Assembly: GCA_030706605.1 (NCBI GenBank) | Contig: JAUZOE010000008.1 | Span: 1-64,000, forward strand | Source: Bacteroidota bacterium | GTDB taxonomy: Bacteria; Bacteroidota; Bacteroidia; Chitinophagales; Chitinophagaceae | DNA length: 64,000 nt | Reading direction: 5' to 3' | Part shown: one piece after another, positions 5,593 to 14,986 of the stretch | How positions within the stretch are numbered: the stretch's first letter is position 1 | Layout: each line of letters opens with the position of its first letter | Notes under the pieces: generated by a model | The model's input: the letters and a program-made list of their open reading frames with translations, nothing else | Databases searched by the model: none | What the model was told of the DNA's origin: nothing | Translations under genes and position numbers: made by a program

Positions 5593-6918
5593 TTATACTT
5601 CTTTACTTTTAAAAATCTTAAAAGCTCCATAACAAATACCCATTATCACAAAATAAATAATTGCCAGGTCCCGGTTAAAAATTACCATAGCAATAAAAGA
5701 AACGATTGCAATCACTAATGCCGTGACCGGAAAGAAAGGAAACATTGGCACTTTAAAAGGCCGCTCCAACTGAGGCTCTTTTTTTCTTAGTTGCAATTGC
5801 GATATCATAGAAATGATATATAACGTTAATGCACCAAATACTGAAATGGTAATAATCTCAGCAGTTTTACCTGTAAGTAAGGCTACAATTCCTATCCCCA
5901 TATTTACCAGCAATGCATTGGAAGGCGTTTGAAATTTTGGATGAATTTTGCCAATAAAAGAAGGAGCAAATTTTACTCTGCCAAATTCGAAGACTGATCT
6001 TCCTGCTGCCAAAATAATTCCATGAAAAGATGCTACCAATCCAAATAAACCTACTGTAATAAGCAAATGATACAAGACATGATTACTTCCTACAATATGG
6101 CTCAAAGCAAGTGGTAAAGGGGAATCTGAAGTAGTACCATCCGCTTTATAAACAATGGCTTCCCACCCGGCCACACCAACTGATGACGCAAATGTCAGTA
6201 TACATAAAATCACCAGGGTAAGGATAGCAGAACCAAATCCTATTAGGATCGTTCGCTGGGGATTGATAGCTTCTTCCGCCACATTAGCAACACCTTCTAT
6301 AGCCAGGAAAAACCATATAGCAAAAGGAATTGCGGCAAAAATTCCCTGCCATCCATGAGGCAATGCATTGTGCTGCAAATTTTTAAAATCAAAATGAGGA
6401 ATAGTAATCCCTGTAAATAATAATAATTCACCGACGGCTAAAATAGTAATGACCAATTCAAACATAGCCGCAGCCTTTACACCGTAAATATTCAACCCTG
6501 TAAATAATACATATCCAAAAATCGCAATAGCAATGATAGGGATTTGCGGAAAAAATAAATTAAAATAAGCGCCAATTGCAAATGCAATGGCAGGCGGAGC
6601 AAAAATAAATTCAATATTCTGTGCCATGCCGGCAACAAAGCCCATGTCTTTGCCAAGAGCCCTGTTTGCATAGTCAAAAGCCCCTCCTGCTTTAGGTATA
6701 GCACATGCCAGTTCAGCATAACTGAATGTAAATGTTACATACATTATAGTGATGAAAAAAGTAGCTATCGCTAACCCCAGGGTGCCCCCCTCCGCGAGTC
6801 CTAAGTTCCAGCCGAAGTACATCCCTGAAATAACATAACCCACACCAAGCCCCCACAACATAACAGGAGTAAGGGTGCGCTTTAATTCATTAGGAGGAGT
6901 TTTTGGTAACAGAGGCAT
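5593..6918 (-). CDS. APC-family permease, ethanolamine-permease-like
   Basis: A 441-residue APC transporter with about 12 hydrophobic segments and first gene of the operon. The N-terminus LWGLGVGYVISGMYFGWNLG, then TFSYAELACAIPKAGGAFDY and GMAQNIEFIFAPPAIAFAIG, closely resembles ethanolamine permeases (Eat/EutP type) of proteobacteria. The same family also holds amino acid permeases, so the substrate is a strong suggestion rather than proof. The start codon lies six bases from a 41-bp palindrome that may control expression of the whole operon. The ribosome-binding site before the start is weak, as is common in Bacteroidota. Confidence 0.85.
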   Translation of the reverse strand: MPLLPKTPPNELKRTLTPVMLWGLGVGYVISGMYFGWNLGLAEGGTLGLAIATFFITIMYVTFTFSYAELACAIPKAGGAFDYANRALGKDMGFVAGMAQNIEFIFAPPAIAFAIGAYFNLFFPQIPIIAIAIFGYVLFTGLNIYGVKAAAMFELVITILAVGELLLFTGITIPHFDFKNLQHNALPHGWQGIFAAIPFAIWFFLAIEGVANVAEEAINPQRTILIGFGSAILTLVILCILTFASSVGVAGWEAIVYKADGTTSDSPLPLALSHIVGSNHVLYHLLITVGLFGLVASFHGIILAAGRSVFEFGRVKFAPSFIGKIHPKFQTPSNALLVNMGIGIVALLTGKTAEIITISVFGALTLYIISMISQLQLRKKEPQLERPFKVPMFPFFPVTALVIAIVSFIAMVIFNRDLAIIYFVIMGICYGAFKIFKSKEV

Positions 6919-6924
6919 CTTATC

Positions 6925-6965
6925 TTAATGTTTAATTAATATTTGCAATATTAATTAAACATTAA
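6925..6965. promoter_or_regulatory. 19-bp perfect inverted repeat before the amine-catabolism operon
   Basis: The left arm TTAATGTTTAATTAATATT (6925-6943) and its exact complement (6947-6965) are separated by the three bases TGC. It lies six bases before the permease start codon. It could be an operator for a repressor or activator, or form an mRNA hairpin near the translation start. No regulator gene is adjacent. The arms are very AT-rich, but 19 matched pairs are not expected by chance in one intergenic region. Confidence 0.6.
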
Positions 6966-7183
6966 ATCAAAATATTAAACTTTTAATCCTTTTAGAAAAA
7001 AATTACATTATTGGGGAATAATTTCTATTACTGATTACTGATGTTATATTTATTATTTAAATAAGGATAATATTTACATTAATGAGGATGCATAGGCTAC
7101 TACTGAACTATATACCAGAATTAATCAGTTCAGTAATATCGGAATTTCTATTAATTTTCTAAAACAGATTGGCAACGCCTTGT

Positions 7184-7191
7184 TATATTTG
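7184..7191 (+). promoter_or_regulatory. Bacteroidota-type -7 promoter element
   Basis: TATATTTG matches TAnnTTTG and lies 21 bp before the start codon of the secreted DUF6263-like gene. ATTGG around 7169 may serve as a degenerate -33 element. The spacing leaves a short leader with an A-rich stretch before ATG. Confidence 0.55.
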
Positions 7192-7212
7192 TCATTCAAA
7201 AATTAAAAAATT

Positions 7213-8052
7213 ATGAAAAAAATCATACTAATCACAACTGCTTCATTGTTTAGCGGCACAATACTTTTCGCACAAAATAACAATGCTTTAAATCTTAAAA
7301 AAGGACAAAAATATTTGGTAGAAAACAAAGTATCTACCAAAAGCTCAACTAAAATGCAAGGCCAGGAAATGGAAGCTAATGCGGATGTAACTTCTACCTA
7401 TAGCATTGAAGTGAACGATTTAGTTGACAACAATTATAATCTTACCAATACTGTAACGGGTGTAAAAATGAATATGTCCCAAATGGGGCAGGAAATGAAT
7501 TTTGACTCCGAAAAAAAGGAAGATATTGATGGGCCAATCGGCAGTGCATTAAAAGAATACATCAACCAACCCAAAAAAGTGGTTATTGATAAATCGGGCA
7601 AATTAATCCCTCAACAAAATGATGATTCTTCAGAAGAAACCAATATGGTGGCAAAACAATTAGGCAATTTTGAAGCTACAGGGTATGGAGCCGATATGGC
7701 TTTCGAATCATTACCCCAAGATTTAAAAGCGGGTTCCACCTGGACTTTGAAAACAGATAATGATGGCATTTCAAAATCAACCACTTATTTAGTAAAAGAA
7801 ATCAATGGAAATATGGCAACTATTGAACTTAATGGCGACATGACTACTGATACCAAAATGGAAAACCAGGGAATGGAAATTACCACAAAAACTACCGGCA
7901 AATTTTCCGGAGAAGAAACAGTTGATATTTCCACGGGGGTTATTCATTCAAATACCTCTACTGTAGATGCATCAGGTATTATTGGCGTAATGGGCCAGGA
8001 ACTTCCAACTTCTTCGAAAATTACTTCTACTACGACAGTGACTATGTTGTAA
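7213..8052 (+). CDS. Secreted DUF6263-like protein
   Basis: A 279-residue protein with a clear signal peptide (MKKIILITTASLF..., predicted cleavage after LFAQ near residue 21). The rest is rich in Thr, Ser and acidic residues with repeated polar beta-strand-like segments and no cysteine. It resembles the DUF6263 group of periplasmic or surface proteins of Bacteroidota, whose function is unknown. It has its own promoter element. Its original terminator has been split by the mobile element that follows, so its transcripts now end, if anywhere, at the hairpin 8147-8175 inside that element. Confidence 0.7.
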   Translation: MKKIILITTASLFSGTILFAQNNNALNLKKGQKYLVENKVSTKSSTKMQGQEMEANADVTSTYSIEVNDLVDNNYNLTNTVTGVKMNMSQMGQEMNFDSEKKEDIDGPIGSALKEYINQPKKVVIDKSGKLIPQQNDDSSEETNMVAKQLGNFEATGYGADMAFESLPQDLKAGSTWTLKTDNDGISKSTTYLVKEINGNMATIELNGDMTTDTKMENQGMEITTKTTGKFSGEETVDISTGVIHSNTSTVDASGIIGVMGQELPTSSKITSTTTVTML

Positions 8053-8078
8053 TCTTTAAAAGGTATTTCTTTATCATT

Positions 8079-8089
8079 AAAGCCCTGCA
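8079..8089 (+). terminator. Left arm of a terminator split by insertion
   Basis: AAAGCCCTGCA (8079-8089) is the exact complement of TGCAGGGCTTT at 13076-13086, which is followed by further T residues to 13089. Rejoined through the shared AAAAAATG they form an 11-bp stem, an A5 loop and a T tail, a textbook intrinsic terminator for the DUF6263-like gene. Neither arm has a perfect local partner. The 5-kb element lies between them. Confidence 0.8.
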
Positions 8090-8096
8090 AAAAATG
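8089..8096 (+). repeat. Left target-site duplication of the 5-kb element
   Basis: AAAAAATG at 8089-8096 recurs at 13070-13077, directly abutting the two terminal inverted repeats. An 8-bp duplication is the size reported for IS1595-family transposition. Confidence 0.8.
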
Positions 8097-8123
8097 GGAT
8101 ATTATATAGAATAAGGGACAAGA
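8097..8123 (+). repeat. Left terminal inverted repeat
   Basis: Twenty-seven bases starting GGATAT and ending AGGGACAA, matching the complement of 13045-13069 apart from one AT dinucleotide insertion and about four mismatches. It immediately follows the AAAAAATG duplication. Confidence 0.8.
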
Positions 8124-8146
8124 TTTAATAACTTATTGAAATATAA

Positions 8147-8175
8147 AGCCTTACACTAAAAATGTAGGGCTTTTT
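8147..8175 (+). terminator. Intrinsic terminator inside the left end of the element
   Basis: AAAGCCTTACA pairs with TGTAGGGCTTT (one G-T pair) and is followed by TTTTTC. It lies 24 bp inside the left inverted repeat and would stop read-through from the host gene into the element. Its stem resembles the split host terminator, which may be coincidence or selection. Confidence 0.7.
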
Positions 8176-8312
8176 CTATTTTAAGCATACCATAACGTAT
8201 AATTATTAGAAATCGAGTACTTTTATTTTAATAGTATTATTAGAAATAGTTTCTAAATTATTTGGTTCGTAATTAGAAATACCATAATTTTGAGTATTAA
8301 TAAACCAATAAT

Positions 8313-8780
8313 ATGTCAATACACATAGAAATAAAAGATGAACACGTAAAATTAATGACAGATTTTTACGGGGGGCAGCTAAAGGCTATTCGTGAAAAGA
8401 AAAAGGAATTGGATAAAGAAGAAAAGGAAATCGAAAACATAATAAGCCAATTAAATTCGGGGAACAATGAGGCTACCCCCAAAGAACCACTAAAGCTAAC
8501 TACACAAAAATTTTATGGAGGTATGCCTCCCTACAACCCTAAATGGACAATACTTGAAAAAATAAAATATGTTTTAAACGAGAATCATGACACTTTTGGA
8601 AGTGGAATGACAAGCAGGGAAATTATAGACAGAATGTTAGCAATTGACCCAGTGTTAAACGCTGATAAAGTAAAAGCTGCAAAAAATGTTTCGACAGTAT
8701 TAAGCATACACAATGGCAAAGAACTTAAAAGAGATGAATTGTCAAAAGATGGAAGAATAAATGTGTATTCTATAAAATAA
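8313..8780 (+). CDS. Coiled-coil plus winged-helix-like protein, possible transposition accessory
   Basis: A 155-residue cytoplasmic protein. Residues about 5-50 are highly charged and heptad-like (KKKELDKEEKEIENIISQL), suggesting a coiled coil. The C-terminal half (about 75-155) has the alternation of a winged-helix domain, including KWTILEKIKYVLNE, MTSREIIDRML and a final beta hairpin ending in VYSIK. No enzyme motif is visible. It is the first gene inside the left end of the element, ahead of the transposase, so it may be a DNA-binding accessory factor or regulator of transposition. This is inferred from position and fold pattern only. Confidence 0.55.
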   Translation: MSIHIEIKDEHVKLMTDFYGGQLKAIREKKKELDKEEKEIENIISQLNSGNNEATPKEPLKLTTQKFYGGMPPYNPKWTILEKIKYVLNENHDTFGSGMTSREIIDRMLAIDPVLNADKVKAAKNVSTVLSIHNGKELKRDELSKDGRINVYSIK

Positions 8781-8845
8781 AAAAAGCCAAAATACAATGC
8801 TTTGGACGGCAGACTGTACAATGGCTTTAGTTCTTTAAAAAATTT

Positions 8846-8917
8846 GGGGCGGTAGCACAATGGCTAATGCAGGTACCTATCAAGTTCTTTATACGGGTTC
8901 AATCCCCGTCCGCTCCA
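8846..8917 (+). tRNA. tRNA-like gene with anticodon AUC (Asp-type or decoy)
   Basis: A cloverleaf can be drawn over 72 nt. The acceptor is GGGGCGG with CCGCTCC (7 bp, one G-U) and discriminator A at 8917. The D arm is GCA/TGC with loop containing TGG. The T arm is ACGGG-TTCAATC-CCCGT, perfectly paired. The anticodon arm GGTAC-CTATCAA-GTTCT has one U-U mismatch and one G-U pair. The loop gives anticodon AUC, which would read GAU (Asp); bacterial tRNA-Asp normally has GUC and G73. CCA is not encoded. A terminator-like hairpin follows at 8922. It may be a working unusual tRNA, a decoy or a degenerating tRNA carried as cargo. Confidence 0.6.
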
Positions 8918-8921
8918 TTCT

Positions 8922-8951
8922 TTTACTACTGTAAAGGTAGTAAACTTTTTG
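8922..8951 (+). terminator. Terminator after the tRNA-like gene
   Basis: TTTACTAC (8922-8929) pairs with GTAGTAAA (8937-8944) around a 7-nt loop and is followed by CTTTTTG. It starts 5 nt after the tRNA-like discriminator base, which suggests that the tRNA-like unit is transcribed separately from the transposase. Confidence 0.6.
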
Positions 8952-8992
8952 AATGATGCAATAGATCATGTAAAATTTAAACTACTTTTATT

Positions 8993-10156
8993 ATGAATAC
9001 TTACAAGCCAGTAAAGACCTTAACAGATGTGATAAGGCAATTTTCAGACGAAGATAAATGCAGACAATTTTTAGTGCAACAAAGATGGAACGGTTGCCCT
9101 GAATGCCCTTATTGTGGAAGCAATAAATATTATATTATTGAGAATGGCAAACGTTTTAAATGTGGTAATAAAGAATGTTATAAGAAATATAGCGTAACTA
9201 CCGGCTCCGTGTTCCATGCAAGCAATATACCTCTTACAACATGGTTCCCTGCTGTTTACTTAATCACTTCACACAAGAAGGGAATTAGTTCTATACAACT
9301 TGCAAAAGACTTAGGTGTGACACAAAAAACTGGATGGTTTATGCTTCATAGAATTAGGGAGTTTTTAAAAACAAATGGTTCATTGTTATTAAAAAATACC
9401 GTTGAAATTGACGAGGTTTTTATTGGCGGAAAGATGAAGAATATGCAGACATCAAAAAGAAGAGCAATTAGAGAAGTAGGCAAAAACGTAAATAAAACAA
9501 TGGTTATAGGTATGCTTGAAAGAGAGGGTGATTTAAGATTGGTAGTTTCTGGACAGGCAGATAGCCGTGAAAATATTTCTGTAATTCTTGAAAAGAATGT
9601 TGATAAAAGTGCATTCCTAATGACAGATGGAACCAGTGTTTATATGAACCATGCAAGCGATTATGCTGGACACCAATCTGTAAATCACTCTGCACAAGAA
9701 TATGTAAGAAATGGTGTAATTCATACGAATGGTATTGAGGGAGCATTCTCATTGTTTAAAAGGTCGATTATTGGCATTTACCACCAAATTAGTCCTAAAC
9801 ATTTATTTAGGTATTGCAGGGAAACCGAATACAGGTACAACACAAGAGAATTAAAAGATGGAGAAAGATTTGAAATTTCACTTACTAAAATAGCTGGCAG
9901 ATTAACTTATAAAGATTTAATAAAGAAAACAGAACTTTCAGAATTGCCAATGATACGTCCTCAATTACCTGATTTAAGCGTTGGTGCGCAGGGTAAAATG
10001 AGAGCTGTTTATCAAATAAAAAATAATAAGATTGTAGCTAAGTATAGTTCACTAAAAGAGGCTTCGATAATGACTGGTATTATAGCACCTAACATATCAA
10101 AATGTGTGAGAGGGTTAAGAAAATCAACAAAAGGATTTGTGTTTAAATATGCTTAA
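8993..10156 (+). CDS. IS1595/ISXO2-like transposase with C-terminal NUMOD1-like domain
   Basis: A 387-residue DDE-type transposase. A zinc ribbon is formed by C38/C41 and C57/C62. A helix-turn-helix lies near 95-125 (IQLAKDLGVTQKTGWFMLHR). The catalytic core holds D140 (VEIDEVFIGGK), D212 (MTDGTSVY) and the HTNGIEGAFSLFKR block with N246/E249. ISXO2-like enzymes usually end soon after this core, near 300-320 residues. Here residues about 337-387 add a compact module (VYQIKNNKIVAKYSSLKEAS, then NISKCVRG and GFVFKY) that reads like NUMOD1 or intron-endonuclease repeat DNA-binding motifs. The gene lies inside matched inverted repeats, so it is probably the active transposase of the element. Confidence 0.9.
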   Translation: MNTYKPVKTLTDVIRQFSDEDKCRQFLVQQRWNGCPECPYCGSNKYYIIENGKRFKCGNKECYKKYSVTTGSVFHASNIPLTTWFPAVYLITSHKKGISSIQLAKDLGVTQKTGWFMLHRIREFLKTNGSLLLKNTVEIDEVFIGGKMKNMQTSKRRAIREVGKNVNKTMVIGMLEREGDLRLVVSGQADSRENISVILEKNVDKSAFLMTDGTSVYMNHASDYAGHQSVNHSAQEYVRNGVIHTNGIEGAFSLFKRSIIGIYHQISPKHLFRYCRETEYRYNTRELKDGERFEISLTKIAGRLTYKDLIKKTELSELPMIRPQLPDLSVGAQGKMRAVYQIKNNKIVAKYSSLKEASIMTGIIAPNISKCVRGLRKSTKGFVFKYA

Positions 10157-10165
10157 TTTAGCTGT

Positions 10166-10333
10166 ATGACACAGCCTAAAAAAAAATTAAATAAAAAACA
10201 AGATAAAGTCCCAATTAAATACAAAGAAAAATTAGTTGTAAATGGAACCTTTGAAGAATTAATGGGAGCATTAGTTTCTACTAAAGTTATAAAAAAGAAC
10301 AAAGAAGAAAATAAGGAAAAGAAGTATCATTAA
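10166..10333 (+). CDS. Small basic protein downstream of the transposase
   Basis: A 55-residue ORF from ATG at 10166 to TAA at 10331-10333, starting 9 bp after the transposase stop. It is Lys-rich at both ends and has a central NGTFEELMGALVST stretch that reads as a short amphipathic helix. No function is recognised. Tight spacing to the transposase suggests co-transcription and a link to the element rather than independent cargo. The next ORF starts 6 bp further on. Confidence 0.5.
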   Translation: MTQPKKKLNKKQDKVPIKYKEKLVVNGTFEELMGALVSTKVIKKNKEENKEKKYH

Positions 10334-10339
10334 TAATCA

Positions 10340-10642
10340 ATGAAATTTACTAAAAAAATATTAATACTAATAGGTGCTTTGATGGTGATACTAATCATTA
10401 CAAATCCATCTTACAGCAGTTTTAAAAATTATACAAAAGATTTCGCCCTTCTAAATGTTCATACTAATACAAGAACCGCTTTTAATGGATTTATATTTTC
10501 TGTTTACTTGGAAGATATTGCGAAAGTTGGTGAGGATAATAATATCCATATAACAACAGTAAAATACTTAGGTATTTTATCTAACTTTTTTGAATTGTCA
10601 AGAAGCAGAAAAAATGTAAAAGACCTCTATATTAAATGGTAA
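10340..10642 (+). CDS. Small membrane-anchored protein of unknown function
   Basis: A 100-residue ORF with one N-terminal hydrophobic segment (ILILIGALMVILIIT, about residues 7-21) and a polar C-terminal portion outside or in the periplasm. It starts 6 bp after the 55-residue ORF, so translation is probably coupled. No family motif is seen. It could be a cargo toxin-like or surface-exposed small protein, but nothing in the sequence decides this. Confidence 0.5.
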   Translation: MKFTKKILILIGALMVILIITNPSYSSFKNYTKDFALLNVHTNTRTAFNGFIFSVYLEDIAKVGEDNNIHITTVKYLGILSNFFELSRSRKNVKDLYIKW

Positions 10643-10719
10643 TATTTACAGTACATAGATTCCGTTATTACTAAGTTTTTCTTCTTTCATTAAATACAAA
10701 TTTAGCTAACAAATTTTAT

Positions 10720-11256
10720 TCATTTTTTATTATTAATATGATAGTATATTAAATCAGAAATACCCCAAATCAATAAACTGGCAGATATAAATGAGTAAGC
10801 AAATTTATAAGGTATCAAAAATATTATTCTAATAAATGGATTAAATAAAATAGCATAAAACAAAAATGCGCGTGCGTAAGCTTTTTCCCCTTTGCTTATT
10901 TTAAGAAAAGCTAAAAAAGAAAATACTAAAAATGTGATACTTCTTATGCCCCAAGAAGGAATAGCCGGTATAAATAGTAGAATAAATAAAGACATCCCCA
11001 TTTTAACCCACACCGTGAAAGACTTATCTCCTTTTGTAAAATCCTCTTTAGTAATATTTAAACAGTAGCATATTATCAATAACACTGCTACTGGTAGTAC
11101 CGCAAATTTGGATATGGCAAACGCAATTTTAGAGATTACGGTATTTTGAAAATCATCAGATGTAAAAAACGTAAAATATACAAATAAAGGAACCCCGATG
11201 ACTACTATTACTATCAGTAATATTGAAGTAATATCCTCTGTATATTTTTTTCTCAT
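10720..11256 (-). CDS. Multi-pass membrane protein of unknown function
   Basis: A 178-residue protein with five or six hydrophobic segments and a short charged N-terminus (MRKKYTEDITS). There are no recognisable catalytic or transport motifs. It is the only sizeable minus-strand gene in the element and converges with the 100-residue ORF. Codon use is as AT-rich as the rest of the cargo. It is a cargo gene of unknown role. Confidence 0.55.
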   Translation of the reverse strand: MRKKYTEDITSILLIVIVVIGVPLFVYFTFFTSDDFQNTVISKIAFAISKFAVLPVAVLLIICYCLNITKEDFTKGDKSFTVWVKMGMSLFILLFIPAIPSWGIRSITFLVFSFLAFLKISKGEKAYARAFLFYAILFNPFIRIIFLIPYKFAYSFISASLLIWGISDLIYYHINNKK

Positions 11257-11380
11257 AATTTTAAAAAAAAGCGTGTGACTGACTACCAGAAATGGCTAAA
11301 CTTTAATTATATATTGTTTCAATAAAAATAACAAAAAATAAATCATGCGATAATTATTACTTTCATTGAAAATAAATATT

Positions 11381-11817
11381 ATGGTAGTTTTAAAAATTGA
11401 TTCTAAAATAAGTAACTGGAAACAGTCGAATAATAAAATAAAAGGGCATTTGACAGAAAGTGATGAGCCCGGATTCCAGTTAAATATTCATCACCCTATT
11501 TATAAATCAGTTTTAAAAATGGATAACGTCATTATCTAAAAATGGATAACGTCATTATCATTACTAATAGAGATAGTGATTTTACATTAGAATTTAATAT
11601 AGATACAATAATTCAGTTCAATATTGAAGGACTTCGACCAACTACTAAAGAATTATATGATGCTTATTTAAAAGCAAAAGATAATGAAGATGAAGTTATT
11701 TGGGAAGAATTAAAAGAAAAAAGGATATTAATTGCCAGACCTAAAGATAGGCGATCTTTTAATCATCTTGAACTGATTTTAGAAAATTTGATTCAAATTA
11801 CATACCCTTTAAATTAA
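11381..11817 (+). pseudogene. Cargo gene broken by a 23-bp tandem duplication
   Basis: An ATG at 11381 opens a 52-codon frame that stops at 11537-11539. A second frame of 91 codons starts at 11542 and runs to 11817. The break coincides with a perfect 23-bp direct duplication (11514-11536 and 11537-11559). Removing one copy joins both frames into one 137-residue protein. The joined product is acidic with a hydrophobic-polar alternation and no recognised domain. The second half still has an ATG and could be translated alone. The intact ancestor may have resembled the small immunity-like or regulatory proteins near it, but no family is assigned. Confidence 0.7.
11514..11559 (+). repeat. Two perfect tandem copies of a 23-bp unit
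   Basis: Each copy begins TAAAAATGG and ends CATTATC. Because 23 is not a multiple of three, the duplication shifts the frame and puts TAA in phase at 11537-11539. It explains the broken gene and could revert by slippage or recombination. Confidence 0.85.
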
Positions 11818-11971
11818 TCAAACAGTTATAGCTAAATTCATATTTTGAAGATTTTACATGATTATCTTTAGTGCTACACAACAAAATCATTATTCCCTTA
11901 TTTTCAAATAATGATTTTTCTTTTTTAGTTTCAACAATTTTAATGTCTTTACTTTTGGTTTTATTTTTCAT
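11798..11971 (-). CDS. Possible 57-residue lysine-rich peptide
   Basis: A minus-strand ORF from ATG at 11971-11969. Its N-terminus (MKNKTKSKDIKIVETKKEK) resembles that of another short minus-strand ORF at 12256-12378. It starts 17 bp before the divergent plus-strand gene at 11989. It overlaps the end of the broken gene by 20 bp. AT-rich DNA produces such frames by chance, so it is reported only because of the paired arrangement. Confidence 0.25.
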   Translation of the reverse strand: MKNKTKSKDIKIVETKKEKSLFENKGIMILLCSTKDNHVKSSKYEFSYNCLINLKGM

Positions 11972-11988
11972 AACAATATTTTTATTAA

Positions 11989-12276
11989 ATGAACATATTA
12001 TTTGACGTAGAGCCATTTGATACACCGAAAGCCAACCTTAAACTATTAGATGTATTCTTTCACATAAAAAGTAAAATAATTCAATCTTTATTACCTATAA
12101 AAGAAAAAATAATACTATGCGATGGCTCCTTGATAATCATATTCACTCCATCATCTATTGGCATAGATCATATCAATATAGATAATACCCTTTCAAAAGA
12201 AATATATCAACTAATTGGAGAGAATATTGATTTTTCACAAATAGCTAAAGATTTATTAACTTTCGATAGCAACTGA
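11989..12276 (+). CDS. Hypothetical cargo protein, 95 residues
   Basis: A short protein starting MNILFDVEPFDTPKANLK with alternating hydrophobic segments (KIILCDGSLIIIFTP) and a helical C-terminal part. There is no signal peptide and no recognised motif. It lies in line with the other plus-strand small genes of the cargo section. Its size and lack of enzymatic motifs are compatible with an immunity or antitoxin-like protein, but no toxin partner is visible. Confidence 0.45.
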   Translation: MNILFDVEPFDTPKANLKLLDVFFHIKSKIIQSLLPIKEKIILCDGSLIIIFTPSSIGIDHINIDNTLSKEIYQLIGENIDFSQIAKDLLTFDSN

Positions 12277-12378
12277 TCTTAATAAGGCTTCTCTTATAAT
12301 TTTCATTTCTTTTACAAAATGAAGTTTTCTTTTTTTGTGGGTTATATTGTGTTTTTTATTTTTTGTTTTATTATTCAT
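12256..12378 (-). CDS. Possible 40-residue lysine-rich peptide
   Basis: A minus-strand ORF with N-terminus MNNKTKNKKHNITHKKRK, similar in the first residues to the ORF at 11798-11971. It lies divergent to, and 23 bp from, the plus-strand gene at 12402, and overlaps the 3' end of the gene at 11989 by 21 bp. The matching position of the two short ORFs relative to plus-strand genes is the only argument for reality. Confidence 0.2.
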   Translation of the reverse strand: MNNKTKNKKHNITHKKRKLHFVKEMKIIREALLRSVAIES

Positions 12379-12401
12379 AAATATACTTTTTAAATATTAA
12401 A

Positions 12402-12824
12402 ATGGAATTCAGATATATTGAAGCAAACCGAAGTATGCGAATGTTTACACCTATAAATTTGCATAGCGTAAATTTTGATTTTAAACATCTTTTTTCATAT
12501 TCCCTTGACTTTATTCCTGCACTCGAAGAAAAAGAAAACGAACTTATTTTAGAGCTAGTATGGAACTATAAAATAATTCACGCAAATGAAGAAATTTATG
12601 ATTACAATCATTTAACTGAATATGAAATAACGGATAAAATAAATGCACCTTTAGTTGAGGATTTAAAACACATTATTAATCAATCATACTCAAAAATGTC
12701 ACTTGAATTTCAAAATAGACCTGATGAATTTAAGTCTTTAAATGAAATTGGTGATTTACCAGCTAATACCATTTCATCCACTCTTTACCAGTTACAGAAA
12801 ATCCTCCTTCCATTACACGGGTAG
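12402..12824 (+). CDS. Hypothetical cargo protein, 140 residues
   Basis: A cytoplasmic-looking acidic protein (MEFRYIEANRSMRMFTPINL...) with a central segment rich in Glu and aromatic residues (ELILELVWNYKIIHANEEIY) and a helical C-terminus. No motif is recognised. The last 62 bp overlap an opposing 69-codon frame on the minus strand (12763-12972); the plus frame is preferred because it is longer and in line with its neighbours. It is the last gene before the right-end terminator of the element. Confidence 0.45.
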   Translation: MEFRYIEANRSMRMFTPINLHSVNFDFKHLFSYSLDFIPALEEKENELILELVWNYKIIHANEEIYDYNHLTEYEITDKINAPLVEDLKHIINQSYSKMSLEFQNRPDEFKSLNEIGDLPANTISSTLYQLQKILLPLHG

Positions 12825-12956
12825 TAGAGGTTGCTATAATATTTTTTCCATCTAATAATATATTAATAGATGATTTATTGCCCTTTTTATTTATAGCAAC
12901 TTGGCATTTAGTTAATTTACCATTTTTTTGGTTTTCTATAAGTCTATTTTTCAAAA

Positions 12957-13026
12957 TAAAAAACCTCAACAAGATACCGTTTATAATAAAATATTTCTAC
13001 GGAGTACCTTGTTGAGGTTTTGTTTT
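12957..13026. terminator. Terminator near the right end of the element
   Basis: AAACCTCAACAAG (12961-12973) pairs with CTTGTTGAGGTTT (13008-13020) around a 34-nt AT-rich loop, with T-rich flanks on both outer sides so it can act in both directions. It ends about 20 bp inside the right inverted repeat and insulates the cargo from the host gene at 13154. Confidence 0.7.
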
Positions 13027-13044
13027 TAATTATATACAATTAGT

Positions 13045-13069
13045 TTGTCCCTAACTGTATATAATATCC
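13045..13069 (-). repeat. Right terminal inverted repeat
   Basis: Read on the minus strand it starts GGATAT and ends AGGGACAA, matching the left end at 8097-8123 with a 2-bp gap. It is followed on the plus strand by the second AAAAAATG copy. Confidence 0.8.
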
Positions 13070-13077
13070 AAAAAATG
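13070..13077 (+). repeat. Right target-site duplication
   Basis: AAAAAATG, identical to 8089-8096. The final TG also belongs to the right arm of the split terminator (13076-13089). Confidence 0.8.
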
Positions 13078-13141
13078 CAGGGCTTTTTTATAATCCGGTA
13101 ATTTAACTTTTATAGTGCCAACTCATTATGAAGGTTAGTAT

Positions 13142-13149
13142 TACTTTTG
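13142..13149 (+). promoter_or_regulatory. -7 promoter element just before a GTG start
   Basis: TACTTTTG matches TAnnTTTG and ends only 4 bp before the GTG at 13154. Transcription from it would begin at or next to the start codon, giving a leaderless or nearly leaderless message. Confidence 0.4.
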
Positions 13150-13153
13150 CAAC

Positions 13154-14986
13154 GTGAAAAAATATACCGGCTACATTTTTTATTTTTTATACTGGCTTTT
13201 GTTTTTTGTTGCTGCTAAAGCATTATTCCTCCTCTATCATTATCCACTTTCCAAAACATTAAGCATATCAGAAATTGCAAAGGTTTTTTTATATGGACTA
13301 AGGATGGATATTTCTTTCACAAGCTACATTTGTGTCTTCCCTTTTTTTCTTTTCCTTGTCAAATCAGTAGTTCCCAATATTCGCATTAATAAAATTATCC
13401 GCATTTACACTCAGTTTCTAGTAATATTAATTTCATTTTTAGTAACTGCTGATCTTGAATTATACTCTGCATGGGGTTTTAGAATGGATACTACCCCTTT
13501 GCAATATTTTAAAACACCGAAAGAAATGGGTGCTACCATTTCTACAGCTCCTGTCTTTGTTTTATTGCTCATTTTTATTTTAATAGTAGTACTTTTTGTT
13601 TTTAGCTATAAAAGATTTTTTGATCCTTATATTGAAAAAAATCAAAAGCGTTTTAAAATAGCAGATGTGTTTTTTTCTGCTTTCCTTCTTGTATTTCTTT
13701 TTATCCCGATTCGGGGAGGAATTCAAAAAATACCGATGAATGTCAGTGATGCCTATTTTTCTGAAAAAATATTTGCAGATCATGCTGCCATTAATTTGCC
13801 GTGGAATATTATGTTTTCTATTTTGAACAGGAACGATACACAAAATCCGTTTGAATATTTTTCATCTGAAAAATCAGAAAAACTAGTTGATTATTTATAC
13901 AACACAGGCCCCAAAAGAATTCCTTCGATATTATCTGTTAACAAACCAAACATTATCTTCATTATTTTAGAAAGTTTTACTGCCAAATGGATCGGCTGCC
14001 TTGGCGGTGTTCCACATGTTACACCAAATCTCGACAGTATCGCAGCGAATGGATTATTGTTTACTAATATTTATGCTTCCGGTGACAGAAGTGAGAAAGG
14101 TCAGGTGGCCGTTCTAAGCGGATATCCTAACCAGGCAATCACTTCAATCATTAAGACACCAACAAAAACCCGGCAACTTTCTTCAATAAACCAGGCACTT
14201 GAAAAGATTGGTTACCTCTCCAGTTATACTTACGGTGGCGAGTTGGAATTCGCGAATATTAAATCTTATCTCATTAATATTAAAATGGATCAGTTGATTG
14301 ATAAATATTCATTTCCTGTATCTGAAAGAACTACCTCATGGGGCGTACATGATCAATATGTTTTCAATCGTTTTTATAATGATATTCAAAAAGAAAAGCA
14401 GCCATTCTTTGCAACGATGTTTACACTTAGTAGTCATGAGCCATACGACGTACCAATGAAACCCGTTTTTAAAGGTAAAGATGAAACTACTCTTTTTAAA
14501 AATTCAGTTTATTACACAGATAGTGTAATTGGTAATTTTATGGCTAAACTTAAAAAAGATTCTTTGTGGAAAAATACCCTGGTGGTTTTTGTTGCCGATC
14601 ATGGGCATCCACTTCCCGGGCATGATCCCAATGACAGGCCTTCAAAATTTCATATTCCGTTGATTTTTTCAGGTGGAGCATTGAAGTTAAAAGGTGTCAT
14701 CAATAATATTGGTTCGCAAACAGATATTGTTACCACCCTTTTAGATCAACTTAATCTGCCCGCAAATAATTTTAAATGGGGGAAAGACTTGTTAGATTCT
14801 TCTGCACGACAATTTGCATTTTATTCTTTCAATAATGGGTTTGGTTTTGTAACTCCCAAAGGAACTGAGACAATAGATAATGTTTCTAAAAAAACTATTT
14901 ACAAAGATTCGGCTTACGATACTTCCGATATCAAATACGGTAAAGCTTATATGCAGTTTTCTTACCAGGATTTTTTAAACAGGTAG
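13154..14986 (+). CDS. LTA-synthase-family sulfatase-fold membrane protein
   Basis: A 610-residue protein starting at GTG. About five transmembrane segments fill the first 190 residues and a sulfatase/alkaline-phosphatase-fold domain follows. Key sites are the metal-binding Glu in NIIFIILESFTAKW, the probable nucleophile in GDRSEKGQVAVLSGYP, and VADHGHPLPGHDP with Asp and His metal ligands. The family transfers phosphoglycerol or phosphoethanolamine to envelope glycans and lipids, acting outside the cytoplasmic membrane. Gram-negative Bacteroidota lack lipoteichoic acid, so lipid or glycan head-group modification is more likely. Before the upstream insertion it would have been next to the DUF6263-like gene. 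Confidence 0.85.
   Translation: MKKYTGYIFYFLYWLLFFVAAKALFLLYHYPLSKTLSISEIAKVFLYGLRMDISFTSYICVFPFFLFLVKSVVPNIRINKIIRIYTQFLVILISFLVTADLELYSAWGFRMDTTPLQYFKTPKEMGATISTAPVFVLLLIFILIVVLFVFSYKRFFDPYIEKNQKRFKIADVFFSAFLLVFLFIPIRGGIQKIPMNVSDAYFSEKIFADHAAINLPWNIMFSILNRNDTQNPFEYFSSEKSEKLVDYLYNTGPKRIPSILSVNKPNIIFIILESFTAKWIGCLGGVPHVTPNLDSIAANGLLFTNIYASGDRSEKGQVAVLSGYPNQAITSIIKTPTKTRQLSSINQALEKIGYLSSYTYGGELEFANIKSYLINIKMDQLIDKYSFPVSERTTSWGVHDQYVFNRFYNDIQKEKQPFFATMFTLSSHEPYDVPMKPVFKGKDETTLFKNSVYYTDSVIGNFMAKLKKDSLWKNTLVVFVADHGHPLPGHDPNDRPSKFHIPLIFSGGALKLKGVINNIGSQTDIVTTLLDQLNLPANNFKWGKDLLDSSARQFAFYSFNNGFGFVTPKGTETIDNVSKKTIYKDSAYDTSDIKYGKAYMQFSYQDFLNR

Follow-up and report, generated by a model that had tools for sequence, protein, structure and literature searches.

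An IS1595-type passenger transposon in the loop of a split host terminator, and a partial preference for hairpin targets among its relatives

The window, a 64,000-nt stretch of a Bacteroidota bacterium (Chitinophagaceae) contig, carries a 4,973-bp element spanning positions 8097-13069, present in one copy in the assembly. It lies between a DUF6263 gene (E 2.4e-17) and a sulfatase/LTA-synthase-like gene (Sulfatase E 1.4e-43, with LtaS-type NCBIfam models matching solely below their cut-offs); its features are collected in Table 1. The 25-nt terminal inverted repeats returned by an inverted-repeat finder match at 22 of 25 positions (88% complementary), and a de novo ends search placed the ends at 8097/13069 with an 8/8 duplication, scoring 19.5 against 10 for the runner-up. 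A sequence-only reading of the window had considered these boundaries and the 8-bp flanking repeats firm; the repeat finder, the ends search, and the empty sites described below concur. The right repeat arm was placed correctly in that reading, while the left arm, drawn to 8123, was 2 nt too long and ends at 8121.

Table 1. Features of the element and its insertion site in the window
Feature	Position	Strand	Evidence
Left arm of split host terminator, AAAGCCCTGCA	8079..8089	+	sequence, empty sites, fold
Left copy of 8-bp target-site duplication, AAAAAATG	8089..8096	.	sequence, ends search
Left terminal inverted repeat	8097..8121	+	repeat finder, ends search
Intrinsic-terminator-like hairpin, 11 pairs, just inside left end	8145..8173	+	fold z -4.7
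ORF A, 155 aa	8313..8780	+	homologue and profile searches
Hairpin directly 5' of tRNA; terminator shape read on minus strand	8782..8830	-	fold z -3.9, sequence
tRNA-like gene, anticodon AUC, G3:U70, A73, anticodon-stem mismatch	8845..8918	+	ARAGORN, Rfam RF00005 52.3 bits, acceptor pairs
Transposase, 387 aa: zinc ribbon 19-62, DDE_Tnp_IS1595 133-283, NUMOD-like C-terminal domain 342-385	8993..10156	+	Pfam, NF033547
Passenger ORF, 100 aa	10340..10642	+	homologue search
Passenger ORF, 178 aa, hydrophobic by eye	10720..11256	-	ORF list
Passenger ORF, 91 aa	11542..11817	+	ORF list
Passenger ORF, 95 aa	11989..12276	+	ORF list
Passenger ORF, 140 aa	12402..12824	+	ORF list
Long hairpin near right end	12960..13021	.	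fold z -5.4
Right terminal inverted repeat	13045..13069	-	repeat finder, ends search
Right copy of 8-bp target-site duplication, AAAAAATG	13070..13077	.	sequence
Right arm of split host terminator, TGCAGGGCTTT	13076..13086	+	sequence, empty sites, fold

The transposase has an N-terminal zinc ribbon (PF12760, 34.9 bits, cut-off 25.4) and a DDE_Tnp_IS1595 domain (PF12762, 120.5 bits; NF033547, 183 bits, cut-off 75). D140, D212, and E249 are invariant in 8/8 sequences, and the motif suggests that they are catalytic. Together with the 8-bp duplication, for which there are empty sites without the element, these domains bear out the earlier assignment to the IS1595 family, whose insertion sequences and passenger-carrying forms have the same three features (PMC8101967, in part of its text). 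The NUMOD-like tail, the tRNA leader, and the hairpin-loop target are what the element has beyond the family pattern; the first two are absent from the sequence-only reading. A 2025 paper on the family (PMC12561309) describes its 8-bp repeats as A/T-rich, and the available part of its text does not contain "hairpin", "palindrom", or "terminator".

None of the passenger ORFs could be assigned to a family in profile searches. ORF A had no match in Pfam, PHROG, or PADLOC and an NCBIfam match solely below cut-off; homologues were found in five other genomes of the family, one of them within a bounded IS1595 element (L123), and none were found in phages. In L056, ~1.5 kb from a different IS1595 transposase, the 100-aa ORF has a weak relative (33% over 92 aa); the ends of that element were not found. 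The hairpin just inside the left end, the sole terminator-like site in 7000-14000 by a consensus scan that is weak alone (shuffles average 2.9), resembles the split host terminator and may replace it. The long hairpin near the right end is possibly a bidirectional terminator.

When the flanks are rejoined, AAAGCCCTGCA-AAAAA-TGCAGGGCTTT folds into a hairpin with a stem of 11 bp and a loop of 5 nt, after which comes T, and the insertion point is located exactly within the loop of this host transcription-stop hairpin. The empty site predicted from the sequence was observed in two genomes of the same genus (L003 in G006 and L004 in G018), in each of which a DUF6263 gene is followed by the uninterrupted AAAAGCCCTGCAATGATGTGTTGCAGGGCTTTTT upstream of the orthologous sulfatase/LTA-synthase-like gene. 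The claims that an insertion had split a terminator and parted these two genes thus hold. The pattern AGCCCTGC-N3..11-GCAGGGCT occurs at one site each in G006 and G018, with 0 matches in the window's own genome. We ruled out that the arms belong to the element: the 8-mers are direct repeats and, in the window's case, the hairpin is uninterrupted in relatives.

Hairpins centred on the duplication were also found among related elements, at rates well above chance. The sample comprised 84 bounded elements, including that of the window; in 12, a stem was centred no more than 0.5 bp from the middle of the duplication, compared to 0.44 expected from intergenic control positions at those loci (132/25,200, 0.52%; binomial p 3e-14). 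The window prompted this test, and the count without it is 11/83. Stem criteria were fixed after inspection of the first set of sites, in which 7/32 had a stem score of at least 8 (controls 0.6%); the second set, from a named genome collection with duplicates removed, gave 6/53 against 0.46% in controls, or 5/52 once L180, which shares its contig and right end with L139, was dropped. By the centring rule used for the 84 sites, this second set alone likewise gives 5/52. Across the 84 sites, positions 1-8 beyond the duplication formed 245 complementary pairs against 171.6 (sd 11.4), with a maximum of 213 over 5,000 partner shuffles, and complementarity peaked at axis shifts of 0 and -0.5. Fifteen sites had a strong stem with its axis within 12 bp, and 12 of these axes were at most 0.5 bp off the centre of the duplication. 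We consider the preference for hairpins beyond chance to be statistically firm. L204 (axis +1.0) and L160 (stem score 6) are hairpin-like sites outside the 12.

The remaining 72 of the 84 elements do not lie in such hairpins, so the preference is partial and differs by clade. Hairpin targets are spread across several clades of the tree, and this scatter rules out a single hairpin-targeting clade; the window's nearest set (seven rows) includes the non-hairpin members L046, L047, L062, and L140. Arm sequences vary by site, for example GGTGAGTCACC in L045, GAGACGC in L169, and GGTCCG in L227, while one sequence, TGC/GACGCAAS or a near variant, is targeted by six relatives, with a seventh landing beside it. 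Terminators were rejected as the general target: by eye, a T tract abuts the stem at one of the 12 hairpin sites, that of the window, and hairpin or palindrome is therefore the better description. Left ends were sought for two other NUMOD-tailed elements, L044 and L159, and not found. The right flank of L044 reads AATGGAAG then CATGGTTTTTT, for which the hairpin idea predicts a left flank ending in ..ACCATG.

From these sites, it is probable that this set of IS1595 transposases prefers hairpin-forming palindromes, with the duplication centred on the axis. We judge the element to be an IS1595-type passenger transposon with a preference for hairpin loops, and the split terminator, which served the sequence-only reading as a boundary marker, shows one instance of it. 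An alternative that we regard as improbable is that the transposases, like those of other insertion sequences, read the sequence of certain repeated palindromes (REP elements) rather than hairpin structure generally. A RAYT-like gene lies within 1.5 kb of 4/13 hairpin-class sites besides the window (L061, L059, L171, and L139) and of 0/70 others, in a search with one query that may miss distant RAYT genes, and intact GGTTCGTG..ACGAACC copies stand beside RAYT-like genes in two of four genomes searched (G205 and G068; none in G009 or G279). Because palindromes adjoin RAYT-like genes in the L061 clade, its transposases may recognise REP-like repeats by sequence. However, the assignment to RAYT is weak (Y1_Tnp, 16.6 bits against a cut-off of 23), arm sequences are unrelated between clades, and the window's hairpin is single-copy in its own genome, a terminator with orthologues in two relatives. 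The one query also had no match in L001, which covers window 6597-14569, and the window lacks the repeated palindrome, often beside a RAYT gene, of REP-targeting insertion sequences. Near-random insertion, with the terminator hit by chance or kept because intergenic insertions are less harmful, is strongly disfavoured and very improbable: an ORF of at least 100 aa is absent from 55/82 rejoined sites and relatives insert mostly outside hairpins, but the intergenic controls give 0.52% against 12/84, 12/15 strong-stem sites are axis-centred, and 6/13 hairpin-class sites are not intergenic by the same crude ORF rule, so survival is not the cause there.

The element inserted itself in the loop of an intrinsic terminator that was intact until then, between the DUF6263 and sulfatase/LTA-synthase-like genes, duplicating 8 bp. 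We infer that a transposase dimer may capture an extruded or single-stranded hairpin, recognising structure and not one particular sequence, and that joining would proceed symmetrically around the loop; in the window's subgroup, the NUMOD tail may contribute to holding the target. REP palindromes or hairpins are also the targets of other insertion sequences, namely IS1397, ISPa11, IS231A, IS30, and IS200/IS605. These have a palindromic or hairpin target in common with the element, yet they belong to other transposase families, and the element differs in its 8-bp duplication on the hairpin axis and in using hairpins of unrelated sequence.

The tRNA gene sits directly 5' of the transposase gene. 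Four further IS1595 elements and an IS1-like element are arranged in a similar way, and a tRNA of this sort also stands ahead of a cas9 gene, giving a position 5' of a transposase gene in 6/7 cases. The alanine identity pair G3:U70 with A73, the sequence mark of an alanine-accepting tRNA, is present in the window's tRNA and occurs with non-alanine anticodons in 5/7; the tRNA body is kept while the anticodon varies. Hand-pairing gave anticodon-stem mismatches in the window, L246, L247, L248, L147, and L153. A copied host tRNA was rejected by a rough comparison with fetched host tRNAs (best alignment 11, self-score 74). A 21-base pattern had no exact match in viral contigs, and blastn found no match in plasmids or phages. 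Over the whole window, ARAGORN listed one tRNA and no tmRNA, a molecule that combines a tRNA-like domain with a tag-encoding region. The tRNA-like domain of tmRNA has the same GGGGC..GCUCCA acceptor with G3:U70, whereas the element's tRNA is complete in shape, anticodon loop included.

We tentatively read the tRNA as a recurrent leader module of the transposase gene, a folded, RNase P/Z-processed leader that could limit or insulate transposase expression rather than a decoding tRNA. Somewhat less likely is that it is ordinary or mistranslating decoding cargo, charged with alanine via G3:U70 and reading GAU, UUC, AUA, or GGA codons. The identity elements in 5/7 cases suit such cargo, as does an Rfam score within the host tRNA range (36th of 38), and chimeric bacterial tRNAs are known; the six mismatched anticodon stems, the 6/7 placements 5' of a transposase gene, and the variable anticodon on a constant body speak against it. 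The known case, Streptomyces tRNA-ProX, joins the body for one amino acid to the anticodon of another (PMC11415595, in part of its text). According to that part, tRNA-ProX shares the body/anticodon mismatch and A34 anticodons (window, L147, and L153), while the element tRNAs differ in their alanine identity (G3:U70 in 5/7), weak anticodon stems, and carriage within transposons 5' of the transposase gene. Broadening the leader reading, we think it unlikely, though conceivable from the sequences, that transposons with transposases of two families in Bacteroidota, and possibly also a cas9 locus, have in common a mobile alanine-identity tRNA-like leader, whose folding or aminoacylation would control downstream nuclease or transposase expression and so tie mobility to the processing of tRNA or the supply of amino acids.

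If a DDE transposase recognises the structure of a hairpin and not its sequence, this would show how elements of this kind come to choose terminators and similar sites. The repeated occurrence of a tRNA 5' of transposase genes points to an undescribed way of controlling transposases, or to a means of spread for unusual tRNAs.

All three signals of the sequence-only reading, namely terminal inverted repeats, an 8-bp direct duplication and a split host terminator, are present in the window sequence, although the left inverted repeat, placed by that reading as far as 8123, was found by a repeat finder to end at 8121. Folding of the flanks rejoined through a single AAAAAATG gave a hairpin with a stem of 11 bp and a loop of 5 nt. 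The proposed empty site was recovered from two relatives of the same genus (loci L003 and L004), where the terminator between the DUF6263 and sulfatase genes has the same arms and is uninterrupted. For this comparison, 12 sulfatase loci were fetched, one of them the window's own, and three of the 11 others (L003, L004, and L008) had a DUF6263 match within the fetched stretch. At L008, the two genes are spaced more widely than at L003 and L004, and a stem related to the window's (ATCCCTGC..GCGGGGAT, then T) was seen by eye after the DUF6263 gene. A pattern search for the hairpin returned one site each in G006 and G018, the genomes carrying L003 and L004, and no intact match in the window's own genome, the hairpin being split there by the element. 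The element is present in one copy in the window's assembly.

Coordinates of the element, its target and features of related loci
Feature	Locus	Positions	Remarks
Element	window	8097-13069	
Split host terminator	window	8079-8089/13076-13086	
Hairpin just within left end	window	8145-8173	terminator-like
ORF A	window	8313-8780	155 aa
tRNA	window	8845-8918	ARAGORN and Rfam; 75 nt ahead of transposase start
Perfect 23-bp tandem duplication	window	11514-11559	across start codon of 91-aa ORF
Right flank	L044	2903-2921 (oriented)	AATGGAAG CATGGTTTTTT after right end
tRNA-like gene	L248	5908-5981	~300 nt upstream of cas9
cas9	L248	1346-5614	RuvC_III, HNH_4

Transposase homologues (E 1e-20 or better) were found in 52 of 195 family genomes, its own genome counted, and at no fewer than 80 loci in a public genome collection. 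A place was considered bounded if its ends matched a terminal-repeat profile and carried a matching duplication. This was true of 29 of the first set's 67 transposase places and, among the matches listed, of 58 of the 82 in the second; one of 65 reversed-sequence controls passed. Two sites with duplications one base out of register, L059 and L047, were entered by hand. The second set without five duplicates comprised 53 sites among the matches listed. The total of 84 sites counts the window and leaves out L180, because its contig and right end are the same as those of L139. That contig has two left ends, TCGCCTGA before each, and a single common right end; this is a case of nested or tandem insertion at one hairpin.

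Duplication-centred stems scoring at least 8 were observed at 7/32 sites of the first set, compared with 0.6% at randomly drawn positions of those loci, and at 6/53 sites of the second among the matches listed (5/52 without L180), compared with 0.46%. Because the window gave rise to the test and the first set was used to choose the thresholds, it is the second set that replicates the result fairly. As a null that preserves base composition, right flanks were exchanged at random between sites: 245 complementary pairs were observed versus 171.6 in shuffles (sd 11.4, maximum 213 in 5,000), and there were 8 runs of at least five pairs versus 0.46. The pairing signal was strongest at axis shifts of 0 and -0.5. 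At 12 of the 84 sites, versus 0.44 expected from intergenic positions, the stem reached at least 7 and its axis fell no more than 0.5 bp from the duplication centre. These sites are the window, L045, L061, L123, L127, L139, L059, L169, L171, L173, L208, and L227; seven belong to the 32 of the first set and five to the 52 of the second, among the matches listed. By a crude rule (a rejoined site without an ORF of 100 aa), just 7 of the 13 sites in the hairpin class count as intergenic. In the transposase tree, hairpin sites make up five of the seven rows of one starred clade, plus the pair L127/L169; the set of seven rows that includes the window is mixed.

The targets are of several kinds. Beside L061 lies a gene that we call RAYT-like (REP-associated tyrosine transposase), based on its position between palindromes and an HxH motif that we take to mark such genes; its Pfam Y1_Tnp match is below the cut-off only. 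A similar gene occurs within 1.5 kb of 4/13 hairpin-class sites (window aside) versus 0/70 other sites. Intact copies of the L061-type palindrome, which look like REP palindromes, adjoin RAYT-like genes in G205 and G068; a search of G009 and G279 found none. The window's target differs from these in being a terminator and single copy. Six further elements (L048, L049, L051, L052, L053, and L157) have the common target TGC/GACGCAAS (GTACAAGAGTGCGACGCAAC) or a near variant, in either orientation, and L175 is inserted next to a target of this type.

The element's transposase combines an IS1595 zinc ribbon and DDE domain with a C-terminal tail that matches a homing-endonuclease domain of NUMOD-like type (Pfam PF22083, 30.3 bits, cut-off 27; PADLOC and PHROG give similar matches). 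Among the relatives examined, the tail is common to L044, L045, and L159, scoring barely above the Pfam cut-off in L045 and below it in L044. The L045 element is inserted in a palindrome scoring 19; therefore, both bounded NUMOD-tailed elements, a small sample, lie in hairpins (2/2). The L044 right flank looks like half a terminator, and the left end of the L044 element, which may be off the contig, was not found. No family could be assigned to the passenger ORFs. Homologues of ORF A were detected in 5 of 393 other genomes searched, that of L123 within a bounded IS1595 element, and the other four loci had no IS1595 transposase match.

A DNA search of 294 genomes with the element's tRNA gave any match in seven, the window's genome counted, and near-full-length matches in three other genomes (77-78%). 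The L247 tRNA lies 5' of another IS1595 transposase and the L246 tRNA 5' of an IS1-like transposase, while the L248 tRNA has a UAU anticodon, G3:U70, and the same body as the window's. The interval between it and cas9 holds a long hairpin; an apparent CRISPR repeat/anti-repeat was also seen there by eye. In a transposase-first survey of 162 distinct genes (153 with 300 nt upstream), from which the window and the loci of the tRNA search were excluded, three (L153, L147, and L289, the first two related to each other) were preceded by a tRNA on the same strand at a distance of no more than 200 nt, versus 0.26 expected from tRNA density. All five non-window transposase-tRNA cases have flanking inverted repeats and 8-bp direct repeats; four of these element ends are de novo finds with no null, and the lowest score belongs to L246. 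A pattern of the tRNA 5' half matched in 12 of 394 family genomes, four of the matches tRNA-like, and in 2 of 328 order genomes. ARAGORN also placed tRNAs within the bounded elements L141, L157, L163, and L178, not adjoining the transposase start.

G3:U70 with A73 is found in the tRNAs of the window, L246, L247, L248, and L289, while L147 and L153 have G3:C70 instead. G3:U70 was absent from all 32 distinct host tRNAs fetched, a sample outside which the alanine and isoleucine tRNAs fall. This pair is the known AlaRS determinant (PMC6451123, PMC11415595). Paired by hand, six of the seven tRNAs have anticodon-stem mismatches, a feature that speaks against efficient decoding; the L289 stem is well paired, with a 9-nt loop. 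In the window, L246, L247, and L248, the tRNA is immediately preceded by a hairpin, and by eye the same holds for L147 and L153; folding there is weak in L289. The window's hairpin has a terminator shape on the minus strand, and those of L147, L153, and L247 appear alike by eye.

Among the open-access papers listed, we found no description of hairpin or terminator targeting by IS1595 elements, or of a tRNA gene upstream of an insertion-sequence transposase. The novelty of both is provisional, since the search covered open-access papers.

We favour a mechanism in which an extruded hairpin would be captured by the transposase, with symmetric joining around its loop; at terminators, supercoiling behind RNA polymerase would perhaps aid this. 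The hairpin just within the element's left end is closely like the split host terminator (AAAAATGTAGGGCTTTTT versus AAAAATGCAGGGCTTTTT), and a long hairpin lies at the right end. Once the host terminator is split, these two hairpins would insulate the adjacent genes.
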